This document shows, piece after piece, positions 25,534 to 55,849 of a stretch of 55,849 nt of DNA; the stretch's first letter is position 1, and the number at the start of each line of letters is the position of its first letter. The notes under the pieces were generated by a model. It was not told the DNA's origin, ran no database searches, and saw only the letters and a program-made list of their open reading frames with translations. The DNA comes from Microcaldota archaeon (GTDB taxonomy: Archaea > Micrarchaeota > Micrarchaeia > Anstonellales > SKW190), in contig JAOAJI010000003.1 in the NCBI GenBank assembly GCA_026414265.1, positions 1-55,849 of the forward strand, written 5' to 3'. The position numbers and the translations under genes were made by a program.

Positions 25534-27231
25534 ATGGGATTAGACACTATAACTGAATTCGATTCTATTACTGATGCAAAGTCTTATTTTAACAAAGGGA
25601 ATATCCATTACGAGAAAGGCGAGTACAAGAAAGCTATTGAGCAGTATACGAAAGCCATTGTTTTGAACAGACTATATAGCGAAGCATATTTCAACAGAGC
25701 ACTTTGCTATTACAACTTGAAAGACTATGATTCAGCCATAGAAGACTACACGAAAGCGCTTGAACTAGATCCAAATAACCCCATACTTTATAATAACAGA
25801 GGAGATGCTTTTTACTTAAAGGAAGATTACAAAAAAGCAATAGAAGATTATTCAAAGGCATTGACTTTGAACAACAAATACATGAAGGCATACTATAATA
25901 GGGGATTGGCGCATGCATGTATTGAAGAGTATGAAAAAGCCATAGAGGATTTCTCTAATGCAATAGACTTGGCGCCTAGTTTTGCACAGTCATATCACTT
26001 AAGAGGAATGTGCTATGAATATTTAAAGCAGTACGAAAAAGCAAAAGAAGATTTCACAAAAGCGTTAGAGCTTAATCCAGACTTTGAAGAAGCGAAGGAA
26101 AGGCTTCAAACAGTAGAAAATGCTTTACAAAACCCTGATGCATTAACCTCTTCAGGAGGGACTGAAGGCCAGAACCAAGGCATAAATGCAATAAAGTTCT
26201 TGAAAAAGCCGAACATGACTTTCAATGACGTTGCAGGGATGGACAAGCTAAAAGAAGAAATAAGAGAAGCTATAGTTTATCCTTTGTTGAAGCCTGATTT
26301 GGCTAGAGCGTATGGTAAGAAGGCAGGAGGAGGAATTTTACTATATGGTCCTCCTGGATGCGGTAAAACGTTCATAGTAAAAGGTGCTGCAGGGGAATGT
26401 AATGCCAATTTCATAAACGCTAAAATTTCAGACTTACTTGACATGTACGTAGGAAACACAGAAAAAAATATCCATAATTTGTTTGATACTGCAAGGAAAA
26501 ATGCTCCTTGTATAGTGTTCATTGACGAAATTGAGGGTATTGGAGGCAGAAGAGAAGAGTTAGGCGGTCAGCAACAATACTTGAAAATGGCAATAAACCA
26601 ATTACTGTACGAAATGGACGGTTTAGAAGCAAACAATGAAAATGTATTGACGATCGCAGCCACCAACGCACCTTGGGATGTTGATCCTGCACTCAGAAGA
26701 TCAGGTAGATTCTCCAAGCTGATTTATGTACCTGAACCTGACTTCAAGTCGAGAATACAGATCTTGCAGATGCATTGCAAAGGTAGACCTATTGAAACGA
26801 AAAACCCTTTAACAAGAGTAGATTTCAACAGATTAGCTATTTGTACTTTAGGCTATTCTTCTTCTGACCTGAAGACAATAGTAGAAGATGCGGCTTCCAT
26901 ACCTTGGAAGGAAGCCTTCAAGACAGGTAGGATGCGAACTATCCAGATGAAGGACTTCATCCAAGCGATAAAGAAAAGAAAGAGTTCTTTGCCTCCTTGG
27001 TATCAACAGGCTAAAAAGCAGATAGGCAAGCAAGAAGAAATTTCTTACATAGACGGTAAAGAACATAAAACAGTGAAAGAATCTAAAATGGGTCCAGCTG
27101 AAAGAGAAGTTTTCCAAGACTTGATAAAGGTAATAGAAAGAAACAACAAATGGTACTATAAATGGGCAAAGGAAGGCTTTAGACAATTTTTCTTATACTT
27201 TCCTATTGCTCCTCCGTGGTGCCCTTGGTAA
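25534..27231 (+). CDS. TPR-AAA+ ATPase fusion
   Basis: Five TPRs (for example EAYFNRALCYYNLKDYDSAIEDYTKALELDPNN), then an AAA domain: Walker A GGGILLYGPPGCGKTF, Walker B APCIVFIDEIEGIGG, arginine region DPALRRSGRFSKLIYVPEPD. Confidence 0.9.
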   Translation: MGLDTITEFDSITDAKSYFNKGNIHYEKGEYKKAIEQYTKAIVLNRLYSEAYFNRALCYYNLKDYDSAIEDYTKALELDPNNPILYNNRGDAFYLKEDYKKAIEDYSKALTLNNKYMKAYYNRGLAHACIEEYEKAIEDFSNAIDLAPSFAQSYHLRGMCYEYLKQYEKAKEDFTKALELNPDFEEAKERLQTVENALQNPDALTSSGGTEGQNQGINAIKFLKKPNMTFNDVAGMDKLKEEIREAIVYPLLKPDLARAYGKKAGGGILLYGPPGCGKTFIVKGAAGECNANFINAKISDLLDMYVGNTEKNIHNLFDTARKNAPCIVFIDEIEGIGGRREELGGQQQYLKMAINQLLYEMDGLEANNENVLTIAATNAPWDVDPALRRSGRFSKLIYVPEPDFKSRIQILQMHCKGRPIETKNPLTRVDFNRLAICTLGYSSSDLKTIVEDAASIPWKEAFKTGRMRTIQMKDFIQAIKKRKSSLPPWYQQAKKQIGKQEEISYIDGKEHKTVKESKMGPAEREVFQDLIKVIERNNKWYYKWAKEGFRQFFLYFPIAPPWCPW

Positions 27232-27257: not shown

Positions 27258-28523
27258 ATGTTTAACGTTATTCAAAAAATAAGAAAAGCTTTTATGCTTA
27301 GTTTTAGAAAGAAAATTGTGGAAAAAAAAGAGAAAAAAATTAACTTTGTTCTGATGATTTATTTCCTAATTCTACTTTTAGGGCTATTTCAACTGAGGCC
27401 TATGAACATTTTAGGCAACATAGAACCTAAATTGATGAGCTATGAAGAGATACAAGAAATTGCAAACACGTTGGTATTAGGAGGTATATTCTTTGTACCT
27501 ATTCTATCTGGCTTAGCTGCAAGTTCACTGATTTTAGCCATTTACGAGTTTTTAAAGGACAAAAGAGGTCAAGATTTACTTAAATTTTTCATCCCAAAAG
27601 AAAAAATCCATAAGATAAATGATTTAGGTTCATTTATTACTTCTCTTTTATCAACTGTTGAAGTTCAGGCATTCATGATTTTTTTGGTAGGCTTTACGCT
27701 TTTCAGGATATTTATAAGTTTGTCGATGGCGCACGGAGAAACTGTTATAGGCATTCTATATTTGTTTGCAATCCCTATTTCTTTCGCCTTGCCTCTGATT
27801 TTAGCTGCTATTTCGATTTATTTCCTGAAGTCAAAAATAGACATAAACATATTTCTTTTTTGTTTTGTTTATGGACTGTTCATAGCAATGATTGTTTTAT
27901 TTTTGAATGAACAGCTCTTGTCAGGAGTAAGTGATTTCTTTGGCATGTTTAAATCCCTTATTTTTAGTCCTGTTATGGAAGAGTTTTTGAAAGGACTGTT
28001 GATAATAGTTTTAGCGACCAGAAAAGATTTTGTTAGCATAAAAGATTTTGCTTTGGCAGCAATTCTCATAGGTTTAGGGTTTGCCGCTTTTGAAAACTTC
28101 TTATACTTTGTTGCAAAAGTTTCTCCATACATATATGGCATGAGTTATTGGACGAGCCTGATAATCTACAGGTCAGTGTTCAACTTACTGGCACATGGTT
28201 TGTTCACTTTCAGTTTGGGCTTTTTTATTTACTTATACAAGCAAGGTCATTTTGAATTGCATTCTGCACTTCCATTAGGACTATTTTTTGCCTTTTTAAC
28301 ACACAGCATGTTTAATTTTTCAGCTATTGTTGACGTAGTAAGTATTAAAGAATTCAAATTTCCTTTTATCATATTCAATCCTTTTATAGTAGTAGTCATG
28401 TTTATAGGTTTCACTTATTTCGTTATACATTTCAATAACGAGGAGTTACAAAATTCTAAACAAACTCCGACAAAGAAGAATACCCGTACCAAGAAATTAA
28501 CAAATAAAAAAACACGAATATAA
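27258..28523 (+). CDS. PrsW-family intramembrane metalloprotease-like protein
   Basis: Polytopic, with conserved motifs PVMEEFLKGLLI, GFAAFENFLYF, HGLFTFSLG and LTHSMFNFS. Confidence 0.82.
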   Translation: MFNVIQKIRKAFMLSFRKKIVEKKEKKINFVLMIYFLILLLGLFQLRPMNILGNIEPKLMSYEEIQEIANTLVLGGIFFVPILSGLAASSLILAIYEFLKDKRGQDLLKFFIPKEKIHKINDLGSFITSLLSTVEVQAFMIFLVGFTLFRIFISLSMAHGETVIGILYLFAIPISFALPLILAAISIYFLKSKIDINIFLFCFVYGLFIAMIVLFLNEQLLSGVSDFFGMFKSLIFSPVMEEFLKGLLIIVLATRKDFVSIKDFALAAILIGLGFAAFENFLYFVAKVSPYIYGMSYWTSLIIYRSVFNLLAHGLFTFSLGFFIYLYKQGHFELHSALPLGLFFAFLTHSMFNFSAIVDVVSIKEFKFPFIIFNPFIVVVMFIGFTYFVIHFNNEELQNSKQTPTKKNTRTKKLTNKKTRI

Positions 28524-40239: not shown

Positions 40240-43200
40240 GTGAGTATCTTATATACTAATTTGAAACAGTTATCAACGTTTAAGAACATAATAATAATTT
40301 TGGTTTTGTTAACGCTACTTGTTCAGATAGCATACTCTCAGATAGAAAAGATATCTACTAGAATAGAAGTTGAAAAATATGACGTTATTAACCAACAAAC
40401 TGGAGAGATTCAGGAAATACATGTAACTGCATATCTTTTTCAAGACTTCACGTTTCCTAAAAAACTACTCCCAGGGAACATCATATACGTACAATGGAGT
40501 GATTCTGGTACTGAAGCGATAAGTAATCCTGCTAACACATGTTATGCCATAACCGATTCAGAAGGAAAGATAAAGCTTAACTTGAGTACGAGCAACACAA
40601 TAAACAAGCCACCAATGCCTTTAGCTGGAAACTACCTAATAATGAGATTCGTTTTCTGTGGCAACTCAAACGAAATTTCTGATATAAAAAGTTGTACTGG
40701 GATACCTAATCTGAATCCTTATACCATAAACCCTTGCAATAATCTTTTGGCAGGCTCTACTTCAGGATATGCAAGTAAACTGGTTCCTCAATATAAGACT
40801 CCTTTCGCAAGAAGTAACACAAAAACAGTGCCTATTGTAAATTCACAAAGGAATAGACTTATGCCGATAGACAATTTCCTGTTTTGCTTCACTCTTTCAG
40901 TCATTTTTGCTTTGTTAGCTTCTGCCATGTACGTTACTGGGAGGAATCCTTTCTCTGCTTTTGACATAACGCCTCCAAGATTTAAAGTAATGAGACTGAC
41001 TGACCAAGGCATATTTCATACTAACCTATCCTTAGGTGCTTTCACATCTCGTGCGATACAAAATTTTATGAGCAAACAAATTGCAAAAGTTGAGAAAGAA
41101 CAAACAAAAACAAAGGATGGACGTCATGAAACCAAGGTTAGAATAAAATCTAACGTGATGAAAGACTTAGGAGAAAGCTTGTACGAAGCAACTCCTACTT
41201 ATGGAGCACAAAAAGTTATAGGAAACATAAATAATACTTGGAACATGGCAATGCGAATGGTAAAAGGCAGAAAAACTATCAATGTCAGGCAAAAAGACGA
41301 GGAAGATAAGAAAGGTCAACAACAACCTAAAGATGGACAAGTACATCAACCAGTAAAACAAGAAAGAGAAACAACTACAATTCAACGAGATCAAGAAAAT
41401 CAAAGAAGTATTAGGATAGAAGGCACATTAATCATGAAGGACAATAAGGCATATATAGTAAAAGAAAAAGACGGAAAAGTAGAACTTTTTGAAATTAAAA
41501 GATCTGAAAACGGAAACTTACAGCTCGTTCACATAAAGAATCAAGATGAATTAACTAAAATATTCGAACCTATAAAAATTAAAGGTAAAACTGTTGAAGT
41601 AAGGATAGAAAAAGGTCAATTAGTATACTACGAGATTCAAGGTGATAAAAGGACTTTGATAACAGATAGCGAAAGAATAAGAGAGATTAATTCTATGCTT
41701 AAGAGCAGGAGTTCTAGTTATTATATTAGTCAAAGCTACGTGATAGATGCAAACAAAGGAAATGTATTTACTTTAGTAGAGCGAGATAATACAGGAAGAC
41801 TAGGTCTGAGTGAAATCCGAGGGGACAAGGCACTTGTGATATATTATCAAGTACTCACTAGTGAAAAAAATCAAATTGAAGAACAACTTAAACAAAGCAT
41901 AAGTGTTGAGCATAATGGAAAAACTTATGTTGTAAGATTACAAGATGGTAAAATAAAGGTATTTGATGGAGAAGTTGAAGTAACAGACCAAAAAATAAAA
42001 AGAGCTGTTGTTGAAAAGGCAACACAATCATATTCAGATAAGTTAGAGAGATTTTCATCTATGTTGACCAGAGAGAATAAAAGAATCAGTATTGAGGATG
42101 CACAAGCTCTAATGCTTCCAAAAGACGAAACAAAAAAAAGTGAAGATGAAAAACCAAAAAGTAAAAGAGACTCAGCACTTATTGAAGAATTAAGATTACT
42201 AATCATACCTGTGCTATTAGCACTAAACAAACAACCATTTTACAAAGTGATGTCTCATTATGTTTTTTATAGAGCCACTCACGTAATGGACAAGCAATAT
42301 AAGAATTCCACAGACACACTGGAAGAAAGGCTTACAACAAAAGGCATGCGAGGATTTACAGGAAGTAATTTTATTGACACTGTTACTATTTTGATGGCAA
42401 CACAACATTTAGCATCTATCAGCGGATTGAATAAATTGAAAGAAGTTCTAGGTCTATCGAAAAGAACTGAAGAAGATAGCATCATGGAGAGACTTAATAA
42501 AATAGGTGAGAGCATGGGAGCTAAATCAGCTTACTTATCAGTAGCGTTCATGGAAGACCTAGGATTAACAAAAATTGGCTTTATACGACGCACTGCTAGT
42601 GAGGTTAGTAACATTTTAGTTGAGAACAGTGCTAAAATATTTGGTAACTTGTTTGGATTACCTGAGCTCAAACATGTCAACTTTAATTCAGATATCAGCT
42701 ATAATGAAGAGGCTATGAGTATCATAGTGTTAAGCGCACACTATGCGATCCAATATGTAAGATACGTTGAACTTGATAAGTATTTTAAGCAAAATAAAGA
42801 TGAACTAAAAGACATAAATCCTATCGAAAGAGAAAAAAGAAGCCTCTTATTAAAAGAATACCTGTATTTGAAAAGCTATTTTGAAGGCCCAAAAGTAGAT
42901 CGCAATTACTGGAGCAACCTAATCAGAGTTTTAATTTTTTTAATGATAATGAACAACATACGAGCGTCTAAATTTAGAAAAACCGCCCTAGGCCAAACAT
43001 TGAGATTTATTTATGACCCAAGATTAGGATTTGCAAGAGACGTTTTCAACTACATATATGCATGTCTAACAGCAAATCAATTCATAGAAAGAGAAGTTTA
43101 TACGTTAGAAGGTAGAGCAGAGAAACTTGCAATTCTGATTTCTCAAACCAATAAGTTATTGTCAGATACGTTAAATGAAAATGAAAAAGAATCAATAATG

Positions 43201-46200
43201 AATAAAATTATTCGCACACTTGAGAGTTTTGGAGTTAAAATAGATTTACAAGAATTTAATAGAAACTCAGGGGATCAAAAAATCAATATAATCGATCAAA
43301 AAATCAATAGAATCGTAGATAAAGTGTATGAGCTATTACTACAAAACCAAGATATGTATATTAATGAGCTTGCAATAAGACACCATAACGGAAATGTAGA
43401 TTCCTTAATTGCTCAACTAACTAATGATGCTAATCAAAAAACAGAGATACAACAAATTATTCAATCTAAAGACAAACCACAGAATGTACCAGAAGATGAG
43501 AAAAAAAAGGATTTCATAAGAAAAAGAGCGCTATTAAGTGAAAAATTAAACAGCTACCTACAAAAGCTATTCGAAGAAAATAAAGCACAAAAAACAACTA
43601 TTATTGTTAATAAGGGGTATGCAAAAGTAAGACTTGGTGCTGATTCTGACATAGTAGGTGTCATGCCTCTAGATGGCCTCAGATATTGGTTAAGCGGTTA
43701 TGGTGAAGTAATTAATAGAAGCTACAGAGACATGGTTTTAATCAATCAAAGAATCAATGCTTTGTTGGACTATAAACTTGCTCAGAATAAAGAAGAAACA
43801 AAAATGGTATTAGAACAAAAATATAAATCTAACATAAAAGAGATAAACGAATTAATTAAGCAGTTAGAAGAAGAGAAAACAGATCAAAGAAAGAGAGAAG
43901 AATTGAAACAGGACATAAGCAAGAAATTAAATGAACTTTTTTCGATTCTATCAGACGATTTTGTGACTAAAGAAGAACGTGAGGATATAACGAAAGCTCT
44001 AAACGATGGAAATTATGAAGCTCTAAAAAATCAATTAAACTCTTTACTTACAGATAGTGGAAGACTTATTAGATTTGAACAAAATATTCACAATAGACTG
44101 AAAAACTTAGGAATCACTTTGCATCAAAATTCAGACATTGACGCTCTTATCGAAAGAGAAAGACAAGAAATGCTTAAAAGGCTAGTCAGTTTCTATTACG
44201 GAGTTTCTATGGCACCTCTGTTTTTCCAGCCCGGCGATATGACACCAAATAAACAACAATTCGTAAGAACAGTAGGAACTAAATTGAATGAAATGCAAAA
44301 AGCAGCAATTTTATTATTTAATAACTTGGTATTAAACGACAAAGCCATTTTAACATCAACGAGCAGAGCGTTTGCTGATTATCTGTCTGGGAAAATTGAT
44401 GCTCGACAATTTGAAATTATAGCGTCTAATCCAGATTCTATTTATGATAATATTACAAGAACTACCATAGGTAGACAGATTATTTCATCTTCTAATGTCA
44501 CTGTGGGAGATAAAACATTAACAGAAGTAGTGATTTACATTAAAAGCAACAAGTTAGTGGCAAGAAAAGCTAACGGACTAGAAATAGATTTAACTGAAAG
44601 TGTAAACGATGGACAAACTGTGAAGATAAAAATAGATGATGAAGAATACACGATTTCAACAAAAAAAGAGGCTGAAAGCCTAGTTGTGATTAACAACGCA
44701 AACCAAGAAGTTATTAGCATTGAATTTAAAACTGGTAAAATAAAACTCGTGGATCCACCTAAGGATGAAGCAAAAAGATTTAGGTTAGCTCAAATTATGT
44801 ATATCACTACTGTCTTAGCGAAACATGAACTTGTCAAAAAACTTGATTCAAGTGAAAGAGAGCTTAGAGTATTGAGAAATCAACAAAACTTCGGTTTACT
44901 TATAACAGATGAAGAAACAATTTTAAAAATTTTGAAGGCTTTTGATGATAAAACAGACCAAGATCAGCATAGCTCTATTAAATATATAAAGGTCTCACAA
45001 GGTACTATACAAACAAAAAAAGATGAGGTCCAACAAGGAGAACAAGGTTGGATTAAAGTAGAAGATATAGAATACGTTGAAGTTTCAAATGGACTAATTA
45101 AAATAAAATTGAAAGATAATAAAGAACCTTTGATTATACAAGCACAAACAAGTATTGAAAATGATATATTAAAGATTAAAGATGTTAATGTTGGTATAGA
45201 TGACCAACAATTCATTTACTCAGCAAATAGCGTAAACCTTTCTGAAACAGCAACAAAGAAGATTCAACCTATGAAACTAGATCAGCATTCTTATGTAAAA
45301 TATGATAGCACAAAAAAGTGCTATATGTTCTTCAGATTAAACGAAAGAAATCAACTTGAACTAGCCCATACATTATCTACATTAGATCCAACAAAAATTA
45401 AATTGATGCATTTTATCAATAGTATAGATCAAACAGATAGTGCCACAAGAATAATAGATTCGTTCTTCTATCTACTTGGAGACGAAAGATTCAAAGACGA
45501 TCTAAATCTTCAAACACTACTAATTAATGCAGATACTAGCCACACTCTTGGACTGCTAGAACAAAGAAAAAAAGTACTTTCAAACCTTGATGTCTTTGAT
45601 AGAGCAGAATATATAATGCAAACTCTGTATTTGAGTGCAGGACGTAATTTACCACGTTTAGAACAAGAACTACCGTTTTCTTCTGAACTAAACAGAAGGT
45701 TTGCAGAGTTAAATGATACGCTGTATAAAGAACTTGAACCAGAAAAAAGACTGTATGATAGACTCAACAAGATTTTGCCAGGTATAGATATACTTAGCAT
45801 GGACTATAATTTAGAACTTGCCCAACAAGCATTGATTAGACTTAATGAAGAAACGTTTAAACTACAAAATATGTTGATAGATAAAGCGATGCTAGAACTG
45901 GACCCAGAAAAAAGAAGTATTATGTTAGGTATGGCCTCAGATTTGGAATTTTTAAGATGTTTAGCAGGGATTGATAAAACAGATTTTGGCATGTTAGTTG
46001 AATTCAACTCAGAAAAAGCGGCAGAACAAGTTGATTTCTATGCGAGAAATTTTGAAGAAAACATGATAAAAATAAATAAAATACTAGAAGACCAAGCTAA
46101 ACAAAACCAAATACCTCAAGATCAGAAACAATTTATTCAAGATAACCTCATTAAGCTAAGGAAATTGCTTGCATACTATAGTAGTAGAATAAATAATGAA

Positions 46201-47430
46201 GATTTGAGTTACGAAGAAAGAGCACTTGCTGCAGCAAGAATTATACAAATAGGTTCGGTGATTGAAACTGTATTACGTACAAGAGATGTAACAATCTTTG
46301 AAAAACTCAGTGGAGAACTTGAAAAAGATTATTCTGTTGTTCAAAACGAAGAAATAAAACTTCAAGCAGTAAGTAAATCCAAAGTTAAAAGTATATTTGA
46401 AAGAACTATAGCAGAAGGGCTTCTAATTCACGGAATAAGTGTAGATGATGCACTCAAGCTAAAAGATAATCTAAGATATTGGTTCAGCTCGGCAAAGTCT
46501 AACCTTGACTACGAAAATTTAATGAAAGCCTATATGGCCTATAAGATAATGACAAAAAATCAAGATTCTACACAAGTTACATACACTCCTTACCAATTGA
46601 AATTACTTGCAATGATGTCAGATCTAGAAGAAGCAAAAAAACTTGATCAATTGATACATTCTCAAAATGCTCAACTTTTATTCCAAGAAGCACTAGCAAC
46701 TGATGAAACGATTAAATCACATGGTCTCTCATCACCTTTCTCATCGCTACTCCCTTCATTGTTTTATTACTCATTAAACAATAATCCAGAAAACCTTCCA
46801 ACTAAAAGCACACATGATGGTATTCAAATATCTGATGAAGCCATTTTTTCCTATCTAATAACTGACCCTAGCAATCCTCAAAGTAAAACAACCACAAATT
46901 CTGAACACATTGAGATAGCAAAAGAAATCTCTGTCATGTTATACAACAGATCAAAAAAAGAAATTGAAGAAAGAATCGATGCCTTTTTAAAGAAAACACC
47001 CATTATAACTCAAGGTGTTACAGAAATGCCTACAGATCAAAATAACAGTTTGAGCGTTTATGATGTGTATTCTACAATTAGATCTGTTAATCCAGTATTA
47101 GCTGAATTCATATTAAGCGTCAACCCAGATTATTATGAAGCACTAGCAAAAAAATACGTAAAAAAAGATGAAGAAAAAGGTACTACATTTTTTGATTCAG
47201 AAAAACTTAATAAAGCACTTCAAACATTGGTTGATGATATGCTAGTCATTTCTGGCACGTATGATACATATCAAAGAAGTAGACTCTTAGAACAAAACTT
47301 CGAAAGCGTAGCTAACTACTCAAAGGCGATTGGCGGATCAGGACTATCGCTTGAGAACTATGGAGTATCGCCAGATTTACAAATGTCAAGAATAATACAA
47401 ATGCAAAACCTTGGAGGGCAAAAATTCTAA
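40240..47430 (+). CDS. Giant membrane-anchored protein of unknown function (2396 aa)
   Basis: GTG start; signal/TM NIIIILVLLTLLVQIAYS; ~190-aa ectodomain with several Cys; TM FLFCFTLSVIFALLASAMYVTG; then ~2150 aa of charged helical sequence with interspersed short beta-rich modules. Confidence 0.85.
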   Translation: MSILYTNLKQLSTFKNIIIILVLLTLLVQIAYSQIEKISTRIEVEKYDVINQQTGEIQEIHVTAYLFQDFTFPKKLLPGNIIYVQWSDSGTEAISNPANTCYAITDSEGKIKLNLSTSNTINKPPMPLAGNYLIMRFVFCGNSNEISDIKSCTGIPNLNPYTINPCNNLLAGSTSGYASKLVPQYKTPFARSNTKTVPIVNSQRNRLMPIDNFLFCFTLSVIFALLASAMYVTGRNPFSAFDITPPRFKVMRLTDQGIFHTNLSLGAFTSRAIQNFMSKQIAKVEKEQTKTKDGRHETKVRIKSNVMKDLGESLYEATPTYGAQKVIGNINNTWNMAMRMVKGRKTINVRQKDEEDKKGQQQPKDGQVHQPVKQERETTTIQRDQENQRSIRIEGTLIMKDNKAYIVKEKDGKVELFEIKRSENGNLQLVHIKNQDELTKIFEPIKIKGKTVEVRIEKGQLVYYEIQGDKRTLITDSERIREINSMLKSRSSSYYISQSYVIDANKGNVFTLVERDNTGRLGLSEIRGDKALVIYYQVLTSEKNQIEEQLKQSISVEHNGKTYVVRLQDGKIKVFDGEVEVTDQKIKRAVVEKATQSYSDKLERFSSMLTRENKRISIEDAQALMLPKDETKKSEDEKPKSKRDSALIEELRLLIIPVLLALNKQPFYKVMSHYVFYRATHVMDKQYKNSTDTLEERLTTKGMRGFTGSNFIDTVTILMATQHLASISGLNKLKEVLGLSKRTEEDSIMERLNKIGESMGAKSAYLSVAFMEDLGLTKIGFIRRTASEVSNILVENSAKIFGNLFGLPELKHVNFNSDISYNEEAMSIIVLSAHYAIQYVRYVELDKYFKQNKDELKDINPIEREKRSLLLKEYLYLKSYFEGPKVDRNYWSNLIRVLIFLMIMNNIRASKFRKTALGQTLRFIYDPRLGFARDVFNYIYACLTANQFIEREVYTLEGRAEKLAILISQTNKLLSDTLNENEKESIMNKIIRTLESFGVKIDLQEFNRNSGDQKINIIDQKINRIVDKVYELLLQNQDMYINELAIRHHNGNVDSLIAQLTNDANQKTEIQQIIQSKDKPQNVPEDEKKKDFIRKRALLSEKLNSYLQKLFEENKAQKTTIIVNKGYAKVRLGADSDIVGVMPLDGLRYWLSGYGEVINRSYRDMVLINQRINALLDYKLAQNKEETKMVLEQKYKSNIKEINELIKQLEEEKTDQRKREELKQDISKKLNELFSILSDDFVTKEEREDITKALNDGNYEALKNQLNSLLTDSGRLIRFEQNIHNRLKNLGITLHQNSDIDALIERERQEMLKRLVSFYYGVSMAPLFFQPGDMTPNKQQFVRTVGTKLNEMQKAAILLFNNLVLNDKAILTSTSRAFADYLSGKIDARQFEIIASNPDSIYDNITRTTIGRQIISSSNVTVGDKTLTEVVIYIKSNKLVARKANGLEIDLTESVNDGQTVKIKIDDEEYTISTKKEAESLVVINNANQEVISIEFKTGKIKLVDPPKDEAKRFRLAQIMYITTVLAKHELVKKLDSSERELRVLRNQQNFGLLITDEETILKILKAFDDKTDQDQHSSIKYIKVSQGTIQTKKDEVQQGEQGWIKVEDIEYVEVSNGLIKIKLKDNKEPLIIQAQTSIENDILKIKDVNVGIDDQQFIYSANSVNLSETATKKIQPMKLDQHSYVKYDSTKKCYMFFRLNERNQLELAHTLSTLDPTKIKLMHFINSIDQTDSATRIIDSFFYLLGDERFKDDLNLQTLLINADTSHTLGLLEQRKKVLSNLDVFDRAEYIMQTLYLSAGRNLPRLEQELPFSSELNRRFAELNDTLYKELEPEKRLYDRLNKILPGIDILSMDYNLELAQQALIRLNEETFKLQNMLIDKAMLELDPEKRSIMLGMASDLEFLRCLAGIDKTDFGMLVEFNSEKAAEQVDFYARNFEENMIKINKILEDQAKQNQIPQDQKQFIQDNLIKLRKLLAYYSSRINNEDLSYEERALAAARIIQIGSVIETVLRTRDVTIFEKLSGELEKDYSVVQNEEIKLQAVSKSKVKSIFERTIAEGLLIHGISVDDALKLKDNLRYWFSSAKSNLDYENLMKAYMAYKIMTKNQDSTQVTYTPYQLKLLAMMSDLEEAKKLDQLIHSQNAQLLFQEALATDETIKSHGLSSPFSSLLPSLFYYSLNNNPENLPTKSTHDGIQISDEAIFSYLITDPSNPQSKTTTNSEHIEIAKEISVMLYNRSKKEIEERIDAFLKKTPIITQGVTEMPTDQNNSLSVYDVYSTIRSVNPVLAEFILSVNPDYYEALAKKYVKKDEEKGTTFFDSEKLNKALQTLVDDMLVISGTYDTYQRSRLLEQNFESVANYSKAIGGSGLSLENYGVSPDLQMSRIIQMQNLGGQKF
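43273..43314 (+). repeat. 21-bp tandem duplication (2 copies, one mismatch)
   Basis: gatcaaaaaatcaatataatc followed directly by gatcaaaaaatcaatagaatc, encoding DQKINIIDQKINRI within the giant ORF. Confidence 0.85.
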
Positions 47431-47431
47431 A

Positions 47432-47440
47432 TTTTTTTTT
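47432..47440 (+). terminator. Poly-T terminator after the giant gene
   Basis: T9 run 2 nt after the stop codon, inside the 14-nt gap to the convergent gene. Archaeal termination commonly uses T-runs. Confidence 0.5.
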
Positions 47441-47444
47441 ATTA

Positions 47445-50400
47445 TCATCTACCAAATCTTAAGACGTATCTCAATGTATTTTCTTTAATATTTTCCAATA
47501 CTTCACTGTTTTGATATTGCATGATGTCAGAAGTAATGACAGCTACTCTACCAAACCGATAAATACCTAATCCTAATTTACCTGCAGTCCTTGTACTCGT
47601 ACCTTGAGTGTCCAATCCTGAAACTACTATTAAAGATGACTTAAAAGTACTACTTAGATTTTTTTTGTCTAATATACTTAATATGCCAGGTAACTGTGTA
47701 GAATCTATCTCGTAAAGCCTGAAATCATCATCAATAGTAACTGAAGATATGTTAATACCAACATCGGAGTAGCTTATTGTAGATTCATTTATCTTAAATT
47801 CAAATTCTTTTAACAAACCGTTATTTATAAAATCAGCAATGATGAGCACTCCTTTTCCTTGACCGACAAACTCTAACAGATGTAATTTTTCCATTCTAGT
47901 AAAAGGTACTGATGTTGTAGTAACAAAAAGACTACAGTTTTTATTATATTTGGAAGACAACTCAGTTCTTTCCACAAATTTTTGTTCTAAGGAAATTAAA
48001 GACCGCTGATCTGGTGGAACTTCAATCAGAATTCTTTGCATTAAGTTGTTTACAATATTACTATAGGAGTTTATGTTTGGGACATTGTTGTCATAACAAA
48101 TGCTGATATTTACGTTCCTGCCAAGTTTACATTCAAGTATTCTTTCATCATCTATTCTAACAAAGTTAAACATGTTAATGTTGTATTCTGCTTTACCTAA
48201 ATGTACATTTACAAAATTTGTTCCTTTTTTTGAGAAGATTATCGTCTCTGGTGAAGCTACTCGATATACCTCTCTCATAAACGTGTAATAATTAGTCATG
48301 TTTGCTGTATTTGATAAACCAAAACTATAAATAGCTCTAGCTTGATATGGATTGTAGTCTTTGTCTATCAAACAACAATATATAGGCATATCATTAGAAT
48401 CATACATGGCAGATATAATATCCATATCCCACGGCTTTAATAGAGACGGAGAAAATGGATATTCTGCTAATTTAAAACCTGTAAAGGAATTCATTAAGTA
48501 GCACGATCCGTAAGAAGTATTGTATTTACATAGACCACATTTAACAAAAGACAGAGGCTCGTTAACAGGATGTAATTTTTTAACATCATCTGGTATAGGT
48601 GGTTGGTTAGATATATCAAGTTTATACTCCATAGGATCTGCATTTTCCGGAACTTTGCAAAATACACCATCATCTGAAACCTGGTATTTTGGCCCGCATT
48701 TGCCTTCACTTAACTCTAATGTAGAACACTTTACACAATAAGGAACTTCATCATATTTTGTATAATTAGTTAATACACAATTCGGATCAGGTGCATAATA
48801 ACCAACAGGTGAAGAAGGATCTGCAAATGATAGATAAGTACAATTATCTACAGCATAGTGCCGAGTGTATAAAACCATATCTCTCTGACCTGTTATCAAT
48901 CTGCCGTATTTCTGCAAAGTTTTTGCTACTTCAGATTGTTGGTAGCCATATTTATCTCTACTAGCTTTATCTTCTCTAATTTCACCAATACCGCATATAC
49001 CTATGTTTGTCCTCCATATTATTGGTATTAAAGGATAACCATCTACATCTTTTTGTGGATTGTCTCTGTCATTAATAGATGTAAGTATAGCACCTATAGT
49101 AACTGAATCTGTCAATATTCTTTGATTTTCTAACAAGAATCTGATAAACATTCCATGTATTTTTTCATTCCAATAAAGATCTACACTATCTTTATAAGCA
49201 GGCATTTTATCTTCGCAAAGAGAAACATTTAATAACAATCTCATAAATGGATTTGCCTCATCTTTTGTATTGCCTGCTAAGCCTAAGAAACCATTAGATA
49301 TGGATGCTAAATACGTTATGTCAGAAGTAACACCTTGTTTTAATTCTGAAATGCTGTAGCTGTACCAAGAGGTGGAAAAACGATTAACAACATCAAAATT
49401 AAAGCGAGTATGATCGCCACAACAATCACAGTCAGTACCGCTAGGAGTAGATACATCCCAATTAGGATATCTAACGGGGTGTCTAACTTGAATTTCATCA
49501 TTGTCTAGGATCGCTCCTCCTGTTGTAATAAGTTTCATGTATAAAACTACTCTTTGATTTTGATCTGCAGCTTTAAGAGCCCTAAACGGATATAACCCAT
49601 TTGCATCATCTAGAATACTCGGGCAGATGAACCAAGAAGTTCCACCAACAGAAGATATGAAAGTCTGTTGACTTTCTATATATTCTGGATGCGGATTCCT
49701 ATTATTATTCATATTTATTATTGTTGAATGCTCCTGTTTAGTGTAGTTAGTTATACCCCACAGTGGTTTGATAATAACAAACTTTTGCCATCTATCATAA
49801 ATCTTACGTGATAGGTTGGCGTGAAATTGTAACATTGAAGCAAAAGCTCTTTCCAAAGATAAATCCTGATACCAAAGATAATATCTATGAGCCGGAAAGT
49901 CTATAGCAATAAAATCTAATTCTCTATCTAAATTTTTTTGGTGAACGTTTTGAGATGTAGCAGTACCTAACATAGATTCCAAATAATTGAACACCGCATT
50001 TTCGTAATCCTGAGGATTTTTGATATTATAAATGCCTAATCTAACTGAATCTACTTGCAAACCAACAAAACAGGTTGGTGAACATCCTTTTAAATGAACC
50101 CACTCAGGGTCGTTAACATTCCCGACTCGAGTACCTGTATTAACATCATACCATTGAGCATACCTGAAAGGAATAATTCTTTTTAGTACTTCTTCAGGTC
50201 TAGTAAAGTTCTTGAAATTTAGCATTACAGGTCCTCTATTACCAGAATTATGAGAACTTACAGCAGAAAATACACTATCTCTACATCTTTGATCATCATA
50301 AGATAACATATCATCAATATCAACTATAGGAAATACATTTTGTGATAAATATTTAGTAAGATAATATGCTAGAAGTCCAGGATGTGGATAATGCTGATTC

Positions 50401-51932
50401 CATTTTTCACTAGGCCATCTTCCACAGTTTATTTCAGGTCTAGTTCCAAAACCTATATAACTTTCACTAAAGCTTAAATCACAATACCTTCTCGTACTAC
50501 TAAATAATCCACCTCCCTTTTTAGATGGACTAGCAATCTTAGCGAGTACATGAGAGGTGTCAATTAGTTCATCATAGATAGTATGGTATGCTGGGCAGAG
50601 CTCTGCGAAATTGCGATATCTATGTTCTGTATACTGCGTAGCCATAGTCATATAAGTACATGGTTCACACCAACCATAATTTTCTAATAAAAGGCCTTGT
50701 GCATCATCAGAACAAATCCCAGAACCAACATTGATTCTTACATTATGGTTATTTTTCTTAACACCCCCTCCTAGTTTTATTTCTAATGGTGTTGTGTTTA
50801 CAATAGAATCTTTAGGAATTTCACAATTACTAACGAAATTAGAATTTTTTATTAAATTAAAAATATCAACATTTGTATACTTGTCTCTGGCTGATTTCTC
50901 TACCATCGAAAAATCAAATATTTCGTCTGTCAAAAAATAGTATCCCGAAGAGTCCTTATTCAGTTTTATATAGATTTCATTTGTATTTCTTGTTAGTCTA
51001 CAGAAAACACCTGAATAAAAATTATGGCCTATAAAAAATCTTTTATATGTACAATCACATGGAATGTTGATACCACTAACTTTGTGCTTACATACGCCTC
51101 TGGAATAGAAATCTTTGGAACATACTCCTGAAAAGCATTCGTTGGAATTCTTACATTCAAATTTGACTGAATCATTTTTATCATATGCTCTCCATGCTCT
51201 AGGCAATACTCTTCTGTAAAAGTATGGATTAATCTTTATTACTAAATTTCCAGCACCTTGGTTAAACAAATCTTCTGCTCTCTCGTCTCTTTCGTCCACA
51301 TAAAACCATTTCTCATCTAAATAGTTGTAATTACCTAATCTCAAGAACGGGTAGTTAACTCTTTCACCAACAGCAAGTTTATCGATTAAAGGATCTACAT
51401 CAAACCTACACCACGAAGATGCTAAATAGCATAAATAAGAAGGTGCAGCATAATTCATATATCTATCCTTTCTTACATCACTTGTTTTTACCTTTGGATT
51501 AATGTTACACTGCGAATCGCTTATCGGAACTAAATTTTTTATTATTTCAAAATCATTAAACTCACCATCAACACCTATTCTAAAAGTATTGATAAATGCA
51601 GAGGATCTCGTAAGTTTGTATTGTAACCTGTTATCAAGACTTTCAAAAGTACATACACTGCCAAGTAAATTTTGTTGTATAGATACATTTGTGTTAAGTT
51701 CAGAAATTTGTTTGTTTTTTAAAACATCTATTGGCGAATCTTTAGTTTCTAGCCTCTTTGCGTTTGGAGAGAATCCACAAACCATTGCAATAAGATTTTG
51801 ATCGATACACCTATCTTCCTGAAAAGGTGAAAGCGTAGAATTAACAGAAGAAGCGTTTACGTCACAACCACTCAAAGCAAAAAAAATAACAAAAATGAAA
51901 AAAAGAATGAGTAGATATTGCTTGGAATTCAT
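47445..51932 (-). CDS. Large Cys-rich surface lipoprotein (about 1495 aa)
   Basis: Signal peptide with lipobox-like FFALSGC at the N-terminus; many Cys, including CDCCGDHTRF and CxxC pairs; no cytoplasmic domain recognised. Confidence 0.8.
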   Translation of the reverse strand: MNSKQYLLILFFIFVIFFALSGCDVNASSVNSTLSPFQEDRCIDQNLIAMVCGFSPNAKRLETKDSPIDVLKNKQISELNTNVSIQQNLLGSVCTFESLDNRLQYKLTRSSAFINTFRIGVDGEFNDFEIIKNLVPISDSQCNINPKVKTSDVRKDRYMNYAAPSYLCYLASSWCRFDVDPLIDKLAVGERVNYPFLRLGNYNYLDEKWFYVDERDERAEDLFNQGAGNLVIKINPYFYRRVLPRAWRAYDKNDSVKFECKNSNECFSGVCSKDFYSRGVCKHKVSGINIPCDCTYKRFFIGHNFYSGVFCRLTRNTNEIYIKLNKDSSGYYFLTDEIFDFSMVEKSARDKYTNVDIFNLIKNSNFVSNCEIPKDSIVNTTPLEIKLGGGVKKNNHNVRINVGSGICSDDAQGLLLENYGWCEPCTYMTMATQYTEHRYRNFAELCPAYHTIYDELIDTSHVLAKIASPSKKGGGLFSSTRRYCDLSFSESYIGFGTRPEINCGRWPSEKWNQHYPHPGLLAYYLTKYLSQNVFPIVDIDDMLSYDDQRCRDSVFSAVSSHNSGNRGPVMLNFKNFTRPEEVLKRIIPFRYAQWYDVNTGTRVGNVNDPEWVHLKGCSPTCFVGLQVDSVRLGIYNIKNPQDYENAVFNYLESMLGTATSQNVHQKNLDRELDFIAIDFPAHRYYLWYQDLSLERAFASMLQFHANLSRKIYDRWQKFVIIKPLWGITNYTKQEHSTIINMNNNRNPHPEYIESQQTFISSVGGTSWFICPSILDDANGLYPFRALKAADQNQRVVLYMKLITTGGAILDNDEIQVRHPVRYPNWDVSTPSGTDCDCCGDHTRFNFDVVNRFSTSWYSYSISELKQGVTSDITYLASISNGFLGLAGNTKDEANPFMRLLLNVSLCEDKMPAYKDSVDLYWNEKIHGMFIRFLLENQRILTDSVTIGAILTSINDRDNPQKDVDGYPLIPIIWRTNIGICGIGEIREDKASRDKYGYQQSEVAKTLQKYGRLITGQRDMVLYTRHYAVDNCTYLSFADPSSPVGYYAPDPNCVLTNYTKYDEVPYCVKCSTLELSEGKCGPKYQVSDDGVFCKVPENADPMEYKLDISNQPPIPDDVKKLHPVNEPLSFVKCGLCKYNTSYGSCYLMNSFTGFKLAEYPFSPSLLKPWDMDIISAMYDSNDMPIYCCLIDKDYNPYQARAIYSFGLSNTANMTNYYTFMREVYRVASPETIIFSKKGTNFVNVHLGKAEYNINMFNFVRIDDERILECKLGRNVNISICYDNNVPNINSYSNIVNNLMQRILIEVPPDQRSLISLEQKFVERTELSSKYNKNCSLFVTTTSVPFTRMEKLHLLEFVGQGKGVLIIADFINNGLLKEFEFKINESTISYSDVGINISSVTIDDDFRLYEIDSTQLPGILSILDKKNLSSTFKSSLIVVSGLDTQGTSTRTAGKLGLGIYRFGRVAVITSDIMQYQNSEVLENIKENTLRYVLRFGR

Positions 51933-51945
51933 AATTATCACTCTA

Positions 51946-53115
51946 TCACGTTAATTTATTAATTACTGAAAAGAGCTCTACGCTATCAGAACCAAGCAAT
52001 GGTGCTGTAAATCTTATGAAAATCGCAGTGACTGCTAAAGCAACAAATGGAATTATCCATTCGAAAATTCTTAGCTGTGCTATGAAATCAGTCATTACGT
52101 CAATGATTGAAAATGTTGTTAAAAAGCTACTCATCCAAGATTCATAAGTAGAAATTACACCCGCAAAAGAAGGGTAACATACCTGCCCTGGAATAGTAGT
52201 CCTTTCAACTAATTCACCTGCAGGTATTTCAAGTGCAACGAAATATGCTAATGGGAAAACAAAATAGAAGCCTATGGCTGTGGCTAGCATTAAACCTCCT
52301 ATTCCCCTAGTTATTGGCAGTATCCTAAGTGCTATTCCATAAGGTAAGAGAATCGACAATGAAGTGTAATTTATTAATCTCAAAAGTTGCATCTGTGCAG
52401 CTAGAGAAATCTGCAGATTAATCGCCATGTCACCAAGCATGTGTGCTCTAATTACTCTCTGAAAGATATTATAATACCTTGAACTTCCTGTTAAATAATC
52501 CATTAATCCAGGGCAAAACTGAAAACCAAATATTGAAAAACACCTTGAAAGTTCTCTTTCTCCTTGAAAGACTTCTCTTATCAGTTGATTATAATAAATG
52601 TTTAATTTGTATAGTGCATAATCAATGTTTGCTGCCGCAAAACAAGCTAGAGAATATTTTTGAACTGGACCAACTATAGGCCTAAGGTGAGGATTAAAAG
52701 CATTTATATATGGCGTGATAATATTTATGGATGTTTCAACTAGAAATACTATTGTAAGTAATATGACGAAACTTGCAACTAGTTGTAAAAACTCTGCTTT
52801 GATAAATATTTCAAACTCCGCATTCTTAACGAAAAAGTGCTGTAACATGTATAATACTGTTAAAATAATGAATCCTGTAAATATAATCAAAAAAGATAGT
52901 ATAGCGTAGTTAGATAATGGACTTAAACCAATCCTCTGATTAAATAATAGAGTATCGATCATTAAGTCGCAAGTAAAGCCCTGATATTGAGCATATGCAT
53001 TATTGGTCAGAAACAACAATAAAAATAATTCCAATACTAAATGCACTTTGTTAGATTTTGATGAAGAAAGATTTGAATTAATCATTATTTTCATAATTCC
53101 CATAGATTTCCTCAT
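51946..53115 (-). CDS. Polytopic membrane protein, paralog A of the cluster
   Basis: Several TM helices. Core motif SLSILLPYGIALRILPITRGIGGLMLATAIGFYFVFPLAYFV; C-terminus FIRFTAPLLGSDSVELFSVINKLT. Confidence 0.8.
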   Translation of the reverse strand: MRKSMGIMKIMINSNLSSSKSNKVHLVLELFLLLFLTNNAYAQYQGFTCDLMIDTLLFNQRIGLSPLSNYAILSFLIIFTGFIILTVLYMLQHFFVKNAEFEIFIKAEFLQLVASFVILLTIVFLVETSINIITPYINAFNPHLRPIVGPVQKYSLACFAAANIDYALYKLNIYYNQLIREVFQGERELSRCFSIFGFQFCPGLMDYLTGSSRYYNIFQRVIRAHMLGDMAINLQISLAAQMQLLRLINYTSLSILLPYGIALRILPITRGIGGLMLATAIGFYFVFPLAYFVALEIPAGELVERTTIPGQVCYPSFAGVISTYESWMSSFLTTFSIIDVMTDFIAQLRIFEWIIPFVALAVTAIFIRFTAPLLGSDSVELFSVINKLT

Positions 53116-53130
53116 TTAATATTAAAAATT

Positions 53131-54159
53131 TTATATGAAATCAAAAAATCTACCTGTGAATATATCAACATCTATTAATCGCCCCAAATGCTTAACACTG
53201 GCTATTAAAATAATCGCATGCAATATTGGCATAAAGATCGTTGTGGCTAAAGAAAGAAAAGTCAGATATATCATTCTTTGATTTCTAATCGGATTGTCAC
53301 TAGGTATAATGAAATTGTCAATAGAACTGATACAGGTTGTTAAAGGCAAATAATTATTCGGATGATATGTAACACCTAATTGATTAACTATTGGAAACCA
53401 CAACATACCGCTTATTGAAAGTATCAAAGGATACAAAACATAAACAACTAATAAAAATGCAATTATTGCACTGCCCATTACTCTTGTTCCTGGTAGGCTT
53501 CTAATGATAATTCCTAAAGGCAGTAAAAAATCAAGAAATCCATGTTGTATAAACAACAAAAATTTCATTTGTGTTAAGGTAGTAAAAATACCTGTCACCA
53601 AAGAATATAACTTTATTTCTAGTAAACGTATTTCTACAGATATTCCTGCATTAGGTCTCTGGTTTAGACCTATTCCTCCAACCAAACAAAGAACTGCAGC
53701 AAGGCCACGTTCCCCACACTTCCATTTGTTAATACTCGAAAGCAATATTGCATCTCTAAGAGCATTGCGCGTATCTGTAATTTCTTTGTGGACAACTAGT
53801 TTTACCCAACTCAAATAAAATATAGAAAAATTGTAAATATTATTATGTTCAGGTAATAAAGAAGATAACTCAATTGGTGTTTTTTGAGAAGGATTTAAAG
53901 ATAGAGGTCCTGTTTCCAAGGTTTGTAGTAAAAGATCTACTTTGATAGCACATGTCAAGTTAAGAATCAATACAACAACGATAACTAATATGAAAGTACT
54001 TATGATTGAAACAAAAGTCATTATTGCAGTGACTTTCAATCTATCATTACTCAAAATATTTGCTAAAACATACATAATTAAACCAATTAACACAGATATG
54101 ATGTTCGCAATAACTATCAACGCACCTTGTTGATATATTGCATCAGCACTACATAACAT
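53131..54159 (-). CDS. Polytopic membrane protein, paralog B of the cluster
   Basis: Core motif GFLDFLLPLGIIIRSLPGTRVMGSAIIAFLLVVYVLYPLILSI; C-terminus SVKHLGRLIDVDIFTGRFFDFI. Confidence 0.8.
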   Translation of the reverse strand: MLCSADAIYQQGALIVIANIISVLIGLIMYVLANILSNDRLKVTAIMTFVSIISTFILVIVVVLILNLTCAIKVDLLLQTLETGPLSLNPSQKTPIELSSLLPEHNNIYNFSIFYLSWVKLVVHKEITDTRNALRDAILLSSINKWKCGERGLAAVLCLVGGIGLNQRPNAGISVEIRLLEIKLYSLVTGIFTTLTQMKFLLFIQHGFLDFLLPLGIIIRSLPGTRVMGSAIIAFLLVVYVLYPLILSISGMLWFPIVNQLGVTYHPNNYLPLTTCISSIDNFIIPSDNPIRNQRMIYLTFLSLATTIFMPILHAIILIASVKHLGRLIDVDIFTGRFFDFI

Positions 54160-54165
54160 AATCCT

Positions 54166-55248
54166 TCACTGTATTCTTTCCAATCTAAATACTTCTATAT
54201 CAACACCCATCATCCTTGAAAGCGAATGAATAACTCCAAAAGTGACTAAAAAAACAAACGCAGGCATCAACATATAAAAGAAATAAACATCGAACAGAAT
54301 AGGTTCAAATACTTTAAGGTTATATAACTGTTTTATGTAATTTACTTTAGAAACCAATGAACTATCCTGTGGATCACATGAATAAGATCTAAGACTATCA
54401 AACTCATTCAAGCTCAAAATATAAGAATAATCAATGTTTGAATATCCTGACTTTTCTTTCATTAAATTCGTCATTCCACCTTCTTGATTAGGATAATTAG
54501 AATTTACGACAAAAAACTTAATTTCTTGATAGATTGTTCTATAACCAATTATTACCAAAGGCATAACAAAAGTAAATGCAATAAATATAGCTATTAAAGC
54601 ATTGCCAGTACCTCTTGTGTAAGAAAATGCTCTAGCTATAACTCCCAAAAACAAAAATAATAAACCGTTTCTTCTAAAAAACTCAAGGACACTAAGAAGA
54701 GTAGAAAATAAACTGACAGACGCAACTAATGTAGAATGCAATATGTTTAATGAAGCAATTGGAACAGATACCACAGCACAGACATTAATAGTATAGCCGA
54801 CACCCAAAAAACCACAATACACGGATTTAGAAGATTCAACGGCTATCTTCTGAATTAAAGTATAAACCTTGTTAGCTAGTATAAGCAATTGTTTTAAATC
54901 TTGCTGTAGAAAGCCATATGCATAACCATCTATAGACTCGTACGCATAATTTGAATTACTTAATAAGCTTCCCAAAAAAGCTTTTGTGATTTCATTGAAA
55001 AAAGATGCAGATAAAGTAAATATAACAATTATCAAAAACGTAATTATTGTGCTTTTTCCTTCTTCTTTTGCAAAGATCTCCAACTTAACATTCCCCGACA
55101 GTTTAGCAGCCATAAAAATTATAGCAATGATAAAGATTGAAGTAAATATACCTAGTAACCCAATTCCACTAGCAGAAAGATAAGAATTCTGCGCAAACAT
55201 GAGCGATACTTGAATAATCGAATATAATAATATAATAAATTTTTTCAT
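54166..55248 (-). CDS. Polytopic membrane protein, paralog C of the cluster
   Basis: Core motif NGLLFLFLGVIARAFSYTRGTGNALIAIFIAFTFVMPLVIIG; C-terminus GVIHSLSRMMGVDIEVFRLERIQ. Confidence 0.8.
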   Translation of the reverse strand: MKKFIILLYSIIQVSLMFAQNSYLSASGIGLLGIFTSIFIIAIIFMAAKLSGNVKLEIFAKEEGKSTIITFLIIVIFTLSASFFNEITKAFLGSLLSNSNYAYESIDGYAYGFLQQDLKQLLILANKVYTLIQKIAVESSKSVYCGFLGVGYTINVCAVVSVPIASLNILHSTLVASVSLFSTLLSVLEFFRRNGLLFLFLGVIARAFSYTRGTGNALIAIFIAFTFVMPLVIIGYRTIYQEIKFFVVNSNYPNQEGGMTNLMKEKSGYSNIDYSYILSLNEFDSLRSYSCDPQDSSLVSKVNYIKQLYNLKVFEPILFDVYFFYMLMPAFVFLVTFGVIHSLSRMMGVDIEVFRLERIQ

Positions 55249-55849
55249 ATTACCTTCCCTATTCCAGGTATATCAATATCACCACCTAAAAACGCAGATA
55301 GAGCCCTTATACCAGCCAAAATCAACATAAACATAAACAAAGGCAAAACATAAGCTGGTATGTAAATAACACTGACTGCAGCTATATCCGCTGGGGTGCT
55401 TGTACCTCCAAATGATTCTGATAATAGACTATCTATTACTGAATTAGGGTCTACTCTACCAAATTCCTCAGATGTTCCACATAACTCATTACAATTTGTT
55501 CTGAGTGGAGGGATAGTAATACACGCAGGATCGCATTTGTTATAGCAATTTTCACATTCATCTGTAATAACTACATCAATTTTGGATTTAGTGATAGGAC
55601 AAAACTCTGCAAATTTATTAGGGAGCTCTACTATATTAAAACAATAATCTGGACATTTCTCTTCGTATCCTGGATCTCGCATTGCACAGCTCATAGAGCA
55701 ACCAAGACATTGACCAACGTATGATATTGATTTAGATAGTGGAATCGGAGGATCTACTTTACAACTATCTGAACAATACGGTGGAGAACACAATACAGTT
55801 AAACCCTCTTTACAAACAAATGACCTTTCTTGATTGCTTGATTCATTTA
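55245..55849 (-). CDS. Cys-rich membrane protein related to the same family by its C-terminus, truncated by the window edge
   Basis: Frame open to the window edge (upstream reads NESSNQERSFVCKEGLTVLCSPPYC); the listed start is TTG. Repeated CxxC/CxxxC; last TM PAYVLPLFMFMLILAGIRALSAFLGGDIDIPGIGKVI. 4-bp overlap with the next gene. Confidence 0.75.
   Translation of the reverse strand, partial: NESSNQERSFVCKEGLTVLCSPPYCSDSCKVDPPIPLSKSISYVGQCLGCSMSCAMRDPGYEEKCPDYCFNIVELPNKFAEFCPITKSKIDVVITDECENCYNKCDPACITIPPLRTNCNELCGTSEEFGRVDPNSVIDSLLSESFGGTSTPADIAAVSVIYIPAYVLPLFMFMLILAGIRALSAFLGGDIDIPGIGKVI

Follow-up and report, generated by a model that had tools for sequence, protein, structure and literature searches.

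Among archaea, the closest described systems are Ced and Ted of the Sulfolobales and Thermoproteales, in which a channel protein with six to seven transmembrane (TM) segments is joined to HerA/VirB4-type ATPases, and in which a VirB4-like N-terminal domain corresponds in part to CedB and in part to CedD (PMC9905601, PMC11868833). The type IV secretion system (T4SS) of R388 has an inner membrane complex of VirB3, VirB4 and VirB6. A reduced T4SS is known from Patescibacteria (PMC12102498), and giant surface proteins of the SPEARE type from Nanohaloarchaeota (PMC10266531).

The machine considered here is apparently undescribed and occurs in nearly all Micrarchaeota, tiny archaea that depend on a host. 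Literature on DPANN archaea and T4SSs, and on Micrarchaeota and type IV secretion, yielded no title or abstract describing it (preprints and most subscription papers lay outside the scope of this survey). The genomes of two cultured Micrarchaeota measure 989,838 bp (Ca. Micrarchaeum harzensis; PMC8975820) and 952,257 bp (Mia14; PMC5498576). The word ‘secretion’ is absent from the main text of the M. harzensis paper (PMC8975820), and the Mia14 paper names only type IV pili, Sec and Tat in its section on secretion (PMC5498576).

The locus and its missing half

The window, by which we mean the whole stretch of DNA analysed, is the complete contig C50 (55,849 bp) of a Ca. Micrarchaeota genome of 1.18 Mb in 117 contigs; the source is thus a DPANN archaeon, as the initial annotation had assumed. 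Most genomes of the order contain two related gene clusters, system A, to which the window belongs, and system B. The right-hand part of the window encodes the following.

40240..47430, + strand: giant protein, 2396 aa (open reading frame; N-terminal region conserved in the giants of systems A and B, the rest variable)
47445..51941, - strand: Cys-rich lipoprotein of system A, 1498 aa, 44 Cys (open reading frame, lipobox, family alignment)
51946..53115, - strand: P6, polytopic paralog, 389 aa, motif LLPYGIALRILPITRG (in a P6 clade of 26, support 0.97)
53131..54159, - strand: P5, polytopic paralog, 342 aa (clusters with P5 from other operons)
54166..55248, - strand: P4, polytopic paralog, 360 aa (clusters with P4 from other operons)
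55245..55847, - strand: C-terminal 200 aa of P3, a Cys-rich polytopic paralog (matches the C-termini of P3 homologs of 650–1140 aa)

The reading frames lie where the initial annotation had placed them, and its account of the spacing is borne out: the intergenic gaps of the leftward operon are 4, 15, 6 and -4 nt, and the giant and lipoprotein genes converge with 14 nt between them. The lipobox is LSGC, at Cys26. Pfam searches with the six proteins gave nothing convincing. The rightmost frame is open at its 5' end, being cut by the end of the contig; it had been described as a Cys-rich membrane protein and is the truncated C-terminus of P3, a fourth polytopic paralog. Likewise, the three paralogs reported earlier are the ones complete in the window, but relatives and contig C83 show that the series has six members. 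Elsewhere in the window, inspection by eye picked out a fusion of TPR repeats and an AAA-ATPase (25534–27231, + strand), followed by a polytopic membrane protein (27258–28523, + strand).

At the end of contig C83 lie the initial 807 aa of P3 together with P2 (332 aa) and P1 (1717 aa, 113 Cys), and this arrangement is collinear with that of complete P3 homologs. No sequence overlap was found between the right end of C50 and the left end of C83; from the collinearity, the two contig ends most likely share one P3 gene. The window holds half of system A. System B is represented on contig C30 by P1–P5, the last genes before that contig breaks off. Transcribed divergently from the system-B P1, 50 bp away, is a protein of 712 aa in which an SLT transglycosylase domain is combined with an M23 peptidase domain (L158:2963-5101, - strand); it has no predicted signal or TM segment, and none of the other loci compared has a close relative of it. 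It is puzzling that an archaeon should encode a murein hydrolase, and a bacterial target is one possibility.

Six polytopic proteins in fixed order

Relatives were sampled as 20 selected stretches of at most 20 kb each. These show a fixed series of six proteins of six to seven TM segments, P1–P6, followed in system A by the Cys-rich lipoprotein (1100–1640 aa) and then the giant. A giant likewise belongs to system B of relatives, and in several of them a lipoprotein of ~730 aa adjoins it. P4 was present in 55 of the 59 genomes of the order. The recurrence of this layout across many genomes is far beyond chance.

The paralogs keep their identity by position. Across 27 operons, 161 P proteins were aligned over 279 columns; the nearest protein outside a protein's own operon occupied the same operon position in all 161 cases, where chance would give about one in six; the six subunits are therefore not interchangeable. 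When neighbours were restricted to a different system type the position still agreed for 135 of the 161. Each position class forms a single clade spanning systems A and B (support 0.90–0.97), from which it follows that the six subunits are older than the duplication that gave A and B and have not replaced one another since. The five operons that come from other families within the class are all represented in the P6 clade; P1–P5 of the four acidophile operons fall outside the position clades. A seventh P-like protein (L055:656-1585) lies upstream of the TM2–ATPase 2 genes described below, and L126, L130, L132, L135 and L137 have similar proteins in that position.

In the P6 family the loop carrying invariant Arg residues is positively charged (on average 2.0 K+R and 0 D+E) and is for that reason probably cytosolic; the segments after the second and fourth TM helices are acidic. 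The P3 of L044 carries an insertion of 638 aa with 67 Cys in the loop after the fourth helix, which on the predicted topology probably lies outside the cell.

The initial annotation had called the polytopic proteins VirB6/TrbL-like, and comparison gave no significant match to these families. Searches of Pfam and of PDB sequences with the polytopic families gave nothing convincing, and the TrbL profile PF04610 gave nothing above its cut-off. The best match in a profile comparison of P6 with VirB6 joins the conserved motifs LLPYGIALRILPITRG and GLGPLFILALIWQPTH with a P of 0.11. A structure model of P6 (pLDDT 75.7) drew generic helical matches from Foldseek, none of them significant, the T4SS chain 8rtd_L ranking 13th with an E of 0.83. 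Sequence homology to VirB6 was thus not detected and the fold match is insignificant. Pfam matches to SecD/F and DUF389 among 40 polytopic proteins were set aside, each being confined to a single member; the former came from an included reading frame that probably encodes a genuine SecD/F protein and does not belong to the P series.

The ATPases and the TM2 protein

The window's genome has two operons for VirB4/HerA/TraG-type ATPases. One, on contig C72, comprises a TM2 protein, ATPase 1, dn1 and dn2; the other, on C24, comprises the further P-like protein, a TM2 protein, ATPase 2 and dn2. The ATPases exceed the Pfam cut-offs for the DUF87, AAA_10 and TraG P-loop families, match a VirB4 profile with an E of 7.8e-12, and match PDB chains of HerA (4d2i) and VirB4 (4ag5), the resemblance to HerA being at least equal to that to VirB4. 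The dn1 protein has a zinc ribbon and two TM segments, its match to PrgI (E 0.023) lying below the cut-off. C24 also encodes, at a distance of 5 kb from its ATPase genes, a protein of 2939 aa with LamG and beta-helix domains (L055:9122-17941, - strand), a likely giant adhesin.

It is the linkage seen in relatives that ties these operons to the polytopic series. In G004 (L127) a single strand reads P3-P4-P5-P6-lipoprotein-giant-TM2-ATPase-dn2, and acidophilic Micrarchaeota (L075–L085) have P1–P6, two TM2 proteins and the ATPase in one operon, with dn1 and dn2 where the stretch reaches that far and, in many, a two-TM protein of ~800–910 aa after it. No match to the giant or to a large lipoprotein was found in the acidophile loci examined. 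The secretion ATPase that the initial annotation had expected thus belongs with the cluster, but beyond the right edge of the contig, where it had been suggested to lie, P3-P2-P1 (C83) most likely come next. Soluble proteins of ~925–1000 aa beside system B, which had been suspected of being ATPases, are class I tRNA synthetases.

Each of the 59 relatives has a match to ATPase 1 (E <= 1e-10), as a rule with some 60% identity, that of G005 being a more distant one only; ATPase 2 is more divergent. The idea of one ATPase per system is weakened, because family f8 and G008 lack ATPase 2, and so have one ATPase of this type each, despite possessing system-A-like P genes and a large lipoprotein. The numbers of ATPases and of systems are not one-to-one.

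The TM2 family combines two TM segments with a cytosolic alpha/beta domain. It was not matched by PF03135, and Pfam and PDB-sequence searches gave nothing convincing; a comparison of its profile with eight VirB4 sequences aligned a stretch of 143 columns without reaching significance (P 0.053). For an AlphaFold2 model (pLDDT 73.9, pTM 0.52), three of the top four PDB matches in Foldseek were chains of VirB4 length from the R388 T4SS inner membrane complex (probability 1.00, E 0.06, TM-score 0.41, rmsd 5.3 Å for 190 aligned columns). An unrelated recombinase ranked first by E value but superposed poorly (TM 0.18). On the evidence of this model, TM2 is likely to be a VirB3-like anchor and a VirB4 N-terminal-like domain on a gene of their own, and its two TM segments could serve as an anchor of the VirB3/PrgI type.

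The giant and the lipoproteins

The giant was said to have two N-terminal hydrophobic segments and a cytosolic part of ~2150 aa; both stand, with the first segment now refined to a signal peptide. An ectodomain of ~180 aa follows, then one TM segment at about residue 214. Conservation among the giants of relatives is confined to the ectodomain and the juxtamembrane region. The system-B lipoproteins (~730 aa) have a lipobox and are Cys-rich, and some have an SLT (lysozyme-like) domain near the C-terminus (e.g. L162:11945-14152 and L161:6787-8955), two exceeding the Pfam cut-off and three falling below it. No SLT domain was seen in six of the ten system-B lipoproteins of one Pfam scan, nor in the system-A lipoproteins scanned. 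Hydrolases of the VirB1 type act on bacterial murein.

Distribution in the phylum

A scan of GTDB species genomes for P6, made with two short peptide patterns from a narrower alignment since one spanning both systems was too diverse, returned 29 loci of Micrarchaeota type and two from MAGs titled Candidatus Marsarchaeota, and no others, a pattern-limited result that leaves room for remote relatives elsewhere. The two titled Marsarchaeota (L079 and L084) carry a Micrarchaeota-type operon and are probably mislabelled. The pattern scan found no relative of P6 in viral contigs, and on this and on the distribution we reject a viral or mobile origin.

Within the phylum, 265 of 303 genomes match the P6 profile and 267 the TM2 profile. 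Both are found in 264 and neither in 35 (phi 0.94), and the four discordant genomes have TM2 only (G023, G172 and G262) or P6 only (G272), the 264 and 35 and the status of G272 being derived arithmetically from the tallies and the listed genomes. The Fisher P-value for this co-occurrence is too small at face value because the genomes share ancestry. P6 is absent from 8 of the 97 genomes of best quality. The genes are thus strongly conserved in their organization with one another. The operon could be read in the genome matching cultured Ca. M. harzensis in length (L164; the stretch stops before P1), and the genome matching cultured Mia14 in length has matches to the P6 and TM2 families.

A putative envelope translocase

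We regard the cluster as probably encoding an envelope translocase related to T4SSs and Ced, with an unusual channel of six paralogs, half of whose system-A version lies in the window. This reading builds on the observed gene order, paralogy, conservation and ATPase linkage and on the predicted VirB4-like fold of TM2; the assembly of a channel, its cargo and direction, and a role in partner contact are what we infer from them. P1–P6, with their six to seven TM segments and their lack of interchangeability, would form a hetero-oligomeric membrane channel, the Cys-rich extracellular loops of some P proteins, the lipoprotein and the ectodomain of the giant facing the outside or a partner cell. 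The TM2 protein would dock the VirB4/HerA-type ATPase beneath the channel, and the ATPase would power the passage of a macromolecule, be it DNA, protein or both; the cytosolic part of the giant and the coiled-coil/winged-helix protein dn2 could act as a scaffold or cargo adaptor. Such a machine may mediate host attachment or macromolecule transfer, as the initial annotation had suggested, and may be a route for the exchange of material with partners. A more specific form, which we put forward tentatively as a possibility, is a translocase peculiar to Micrarchaeota whose membrane channel is obligately hetero-oligomeric, its six subunits having arisen by ancient duplication and some of them bearing a Cys-rich domain outside the cell. 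Many cells would possess two parallel machines of this kind, moving DNA or protein to or from partners.

The same core mechanism might run in another direction and for another purpose, as a domesticated Ced/Ted-like system for the uptake or exchange of DNA, used for repair or for recombination between Micrarchaeota or with DNA from the host, and not as a host-directed exporter. The channel protein and ATPases of Ced and Ted are joined in the same manner (PMC9905601, PMC11868833), and vertical inheritance across the phylum is what a housekeeping function would lead one to expect. However, in place of a fixed set of six paralogs Ced has a single CedA (plus CedE in Saccharolobus), the cluster showed no pilin resembling CedA1, and the accounts of Ced cited here include no exported Cys-rich proteins of very large size (PMC9905601, PMC11868833), so we think this unlikely. 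Less probable again is a complex for attachment or envelope organization that transports nothing, in which the polytopic proteins would hold the giant surface proteins in place, while assembly, disassembly or DNA end processing would be the task of the ATPase. The largest parts are surface proteins, the PDB matches of the ATPase include HerA and the fold search with P6 gave no significant channel homology, all of which would suit it, but the ATPase and TM2 share an operon with P1–P6 in many genomes. Moreover, as the acidophile loci examined lack a match to the giant or large lipoprotein, the conserved core consists of channel-like proteins and an ATPase, which argues against attachment as the sole function. 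An integrated conjugative element, for which ATPases of T4SS type would be typical, is hardly credible given P6 in so large a share of the phylum, the fixed gene order with position-wise orthology and the lack of a relative among viral contigs in the pattern scan.

It is an open question by what physical means DPANN archaea and their hosts interact, and if the translocase reading is true, most Micrarchaeota gain a candidate apparatus for contact or transfer. Its genetic core is defined (P1–P6, TM2, the ATPase, dn1, dn2 and the two-TM protein of ~800–910 aa), and the presence of the operon, or of its P6 and TM2 families, in genomes matching cultured strains in length makes it testable in existing co-cultures.

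Comparison with known systems

The cluster shares with the R388 T4SS the family of its ATPase, a polytopic candidate channel component and, as predicted from the TM2 model, a resemblance to the N-terminal region of VirB4; the SLT hydrolase of some system-B lipoproteins recalls VirB1. It differs in having the VirB4 N-terminal-like part on a separate gene from the P-loop domain and in its lack of detectable VirB6 homology, and no VirB8, VirB9, VirB10, VirB11, coupling protein or pilin was recognized among the cluster genes. The SPEARE-type giants are also from DPANN archaea and also tie a giant surface protein to a VirB4-like ATPase, but there the ATPase domain is fused to an Ig-repeat protein of ~9000 aa, and the description consulted mentions no series of polytopic paralogs (PMC10266531).

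The reduced T4SS of Patescibacteria likewise belongs to a host-dependent lineage with reduced genomes and has a chromosomal, widely conserved core with wall hydrolases nearby, but it is bacterial, with recognizable VirB/Prg homologs and pilin arrays and without a series of six paralogs (PMC12102498). If the translocase reading is true, the Micrarchaeota machine would be a parallel to this system of host-dependent CPR bacteria. Ced and Ted come close in another way, being archaeal and pairing a membrane protein of six to seven TM segments with a HerA/VirB4-type ATPase, and the splitting of a VirB4-like N-terminal domain over polypeptides (CedB and CedD) fits, by description, the presence of TM2 and the ATPase in one operon (PMC9905601, PMC11868833). 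P1–P6 are likened to CedA and TedA by this number of TM segments and by description, not by sequence. The machine of Micrarchaeota stands apart from both in the absence of any noticed pilin, in its Cys-rich extracellular insertions and its giant and lipoprotein partners, and in having six fixed polytopic paralogs where Ced and Ted have one or two.
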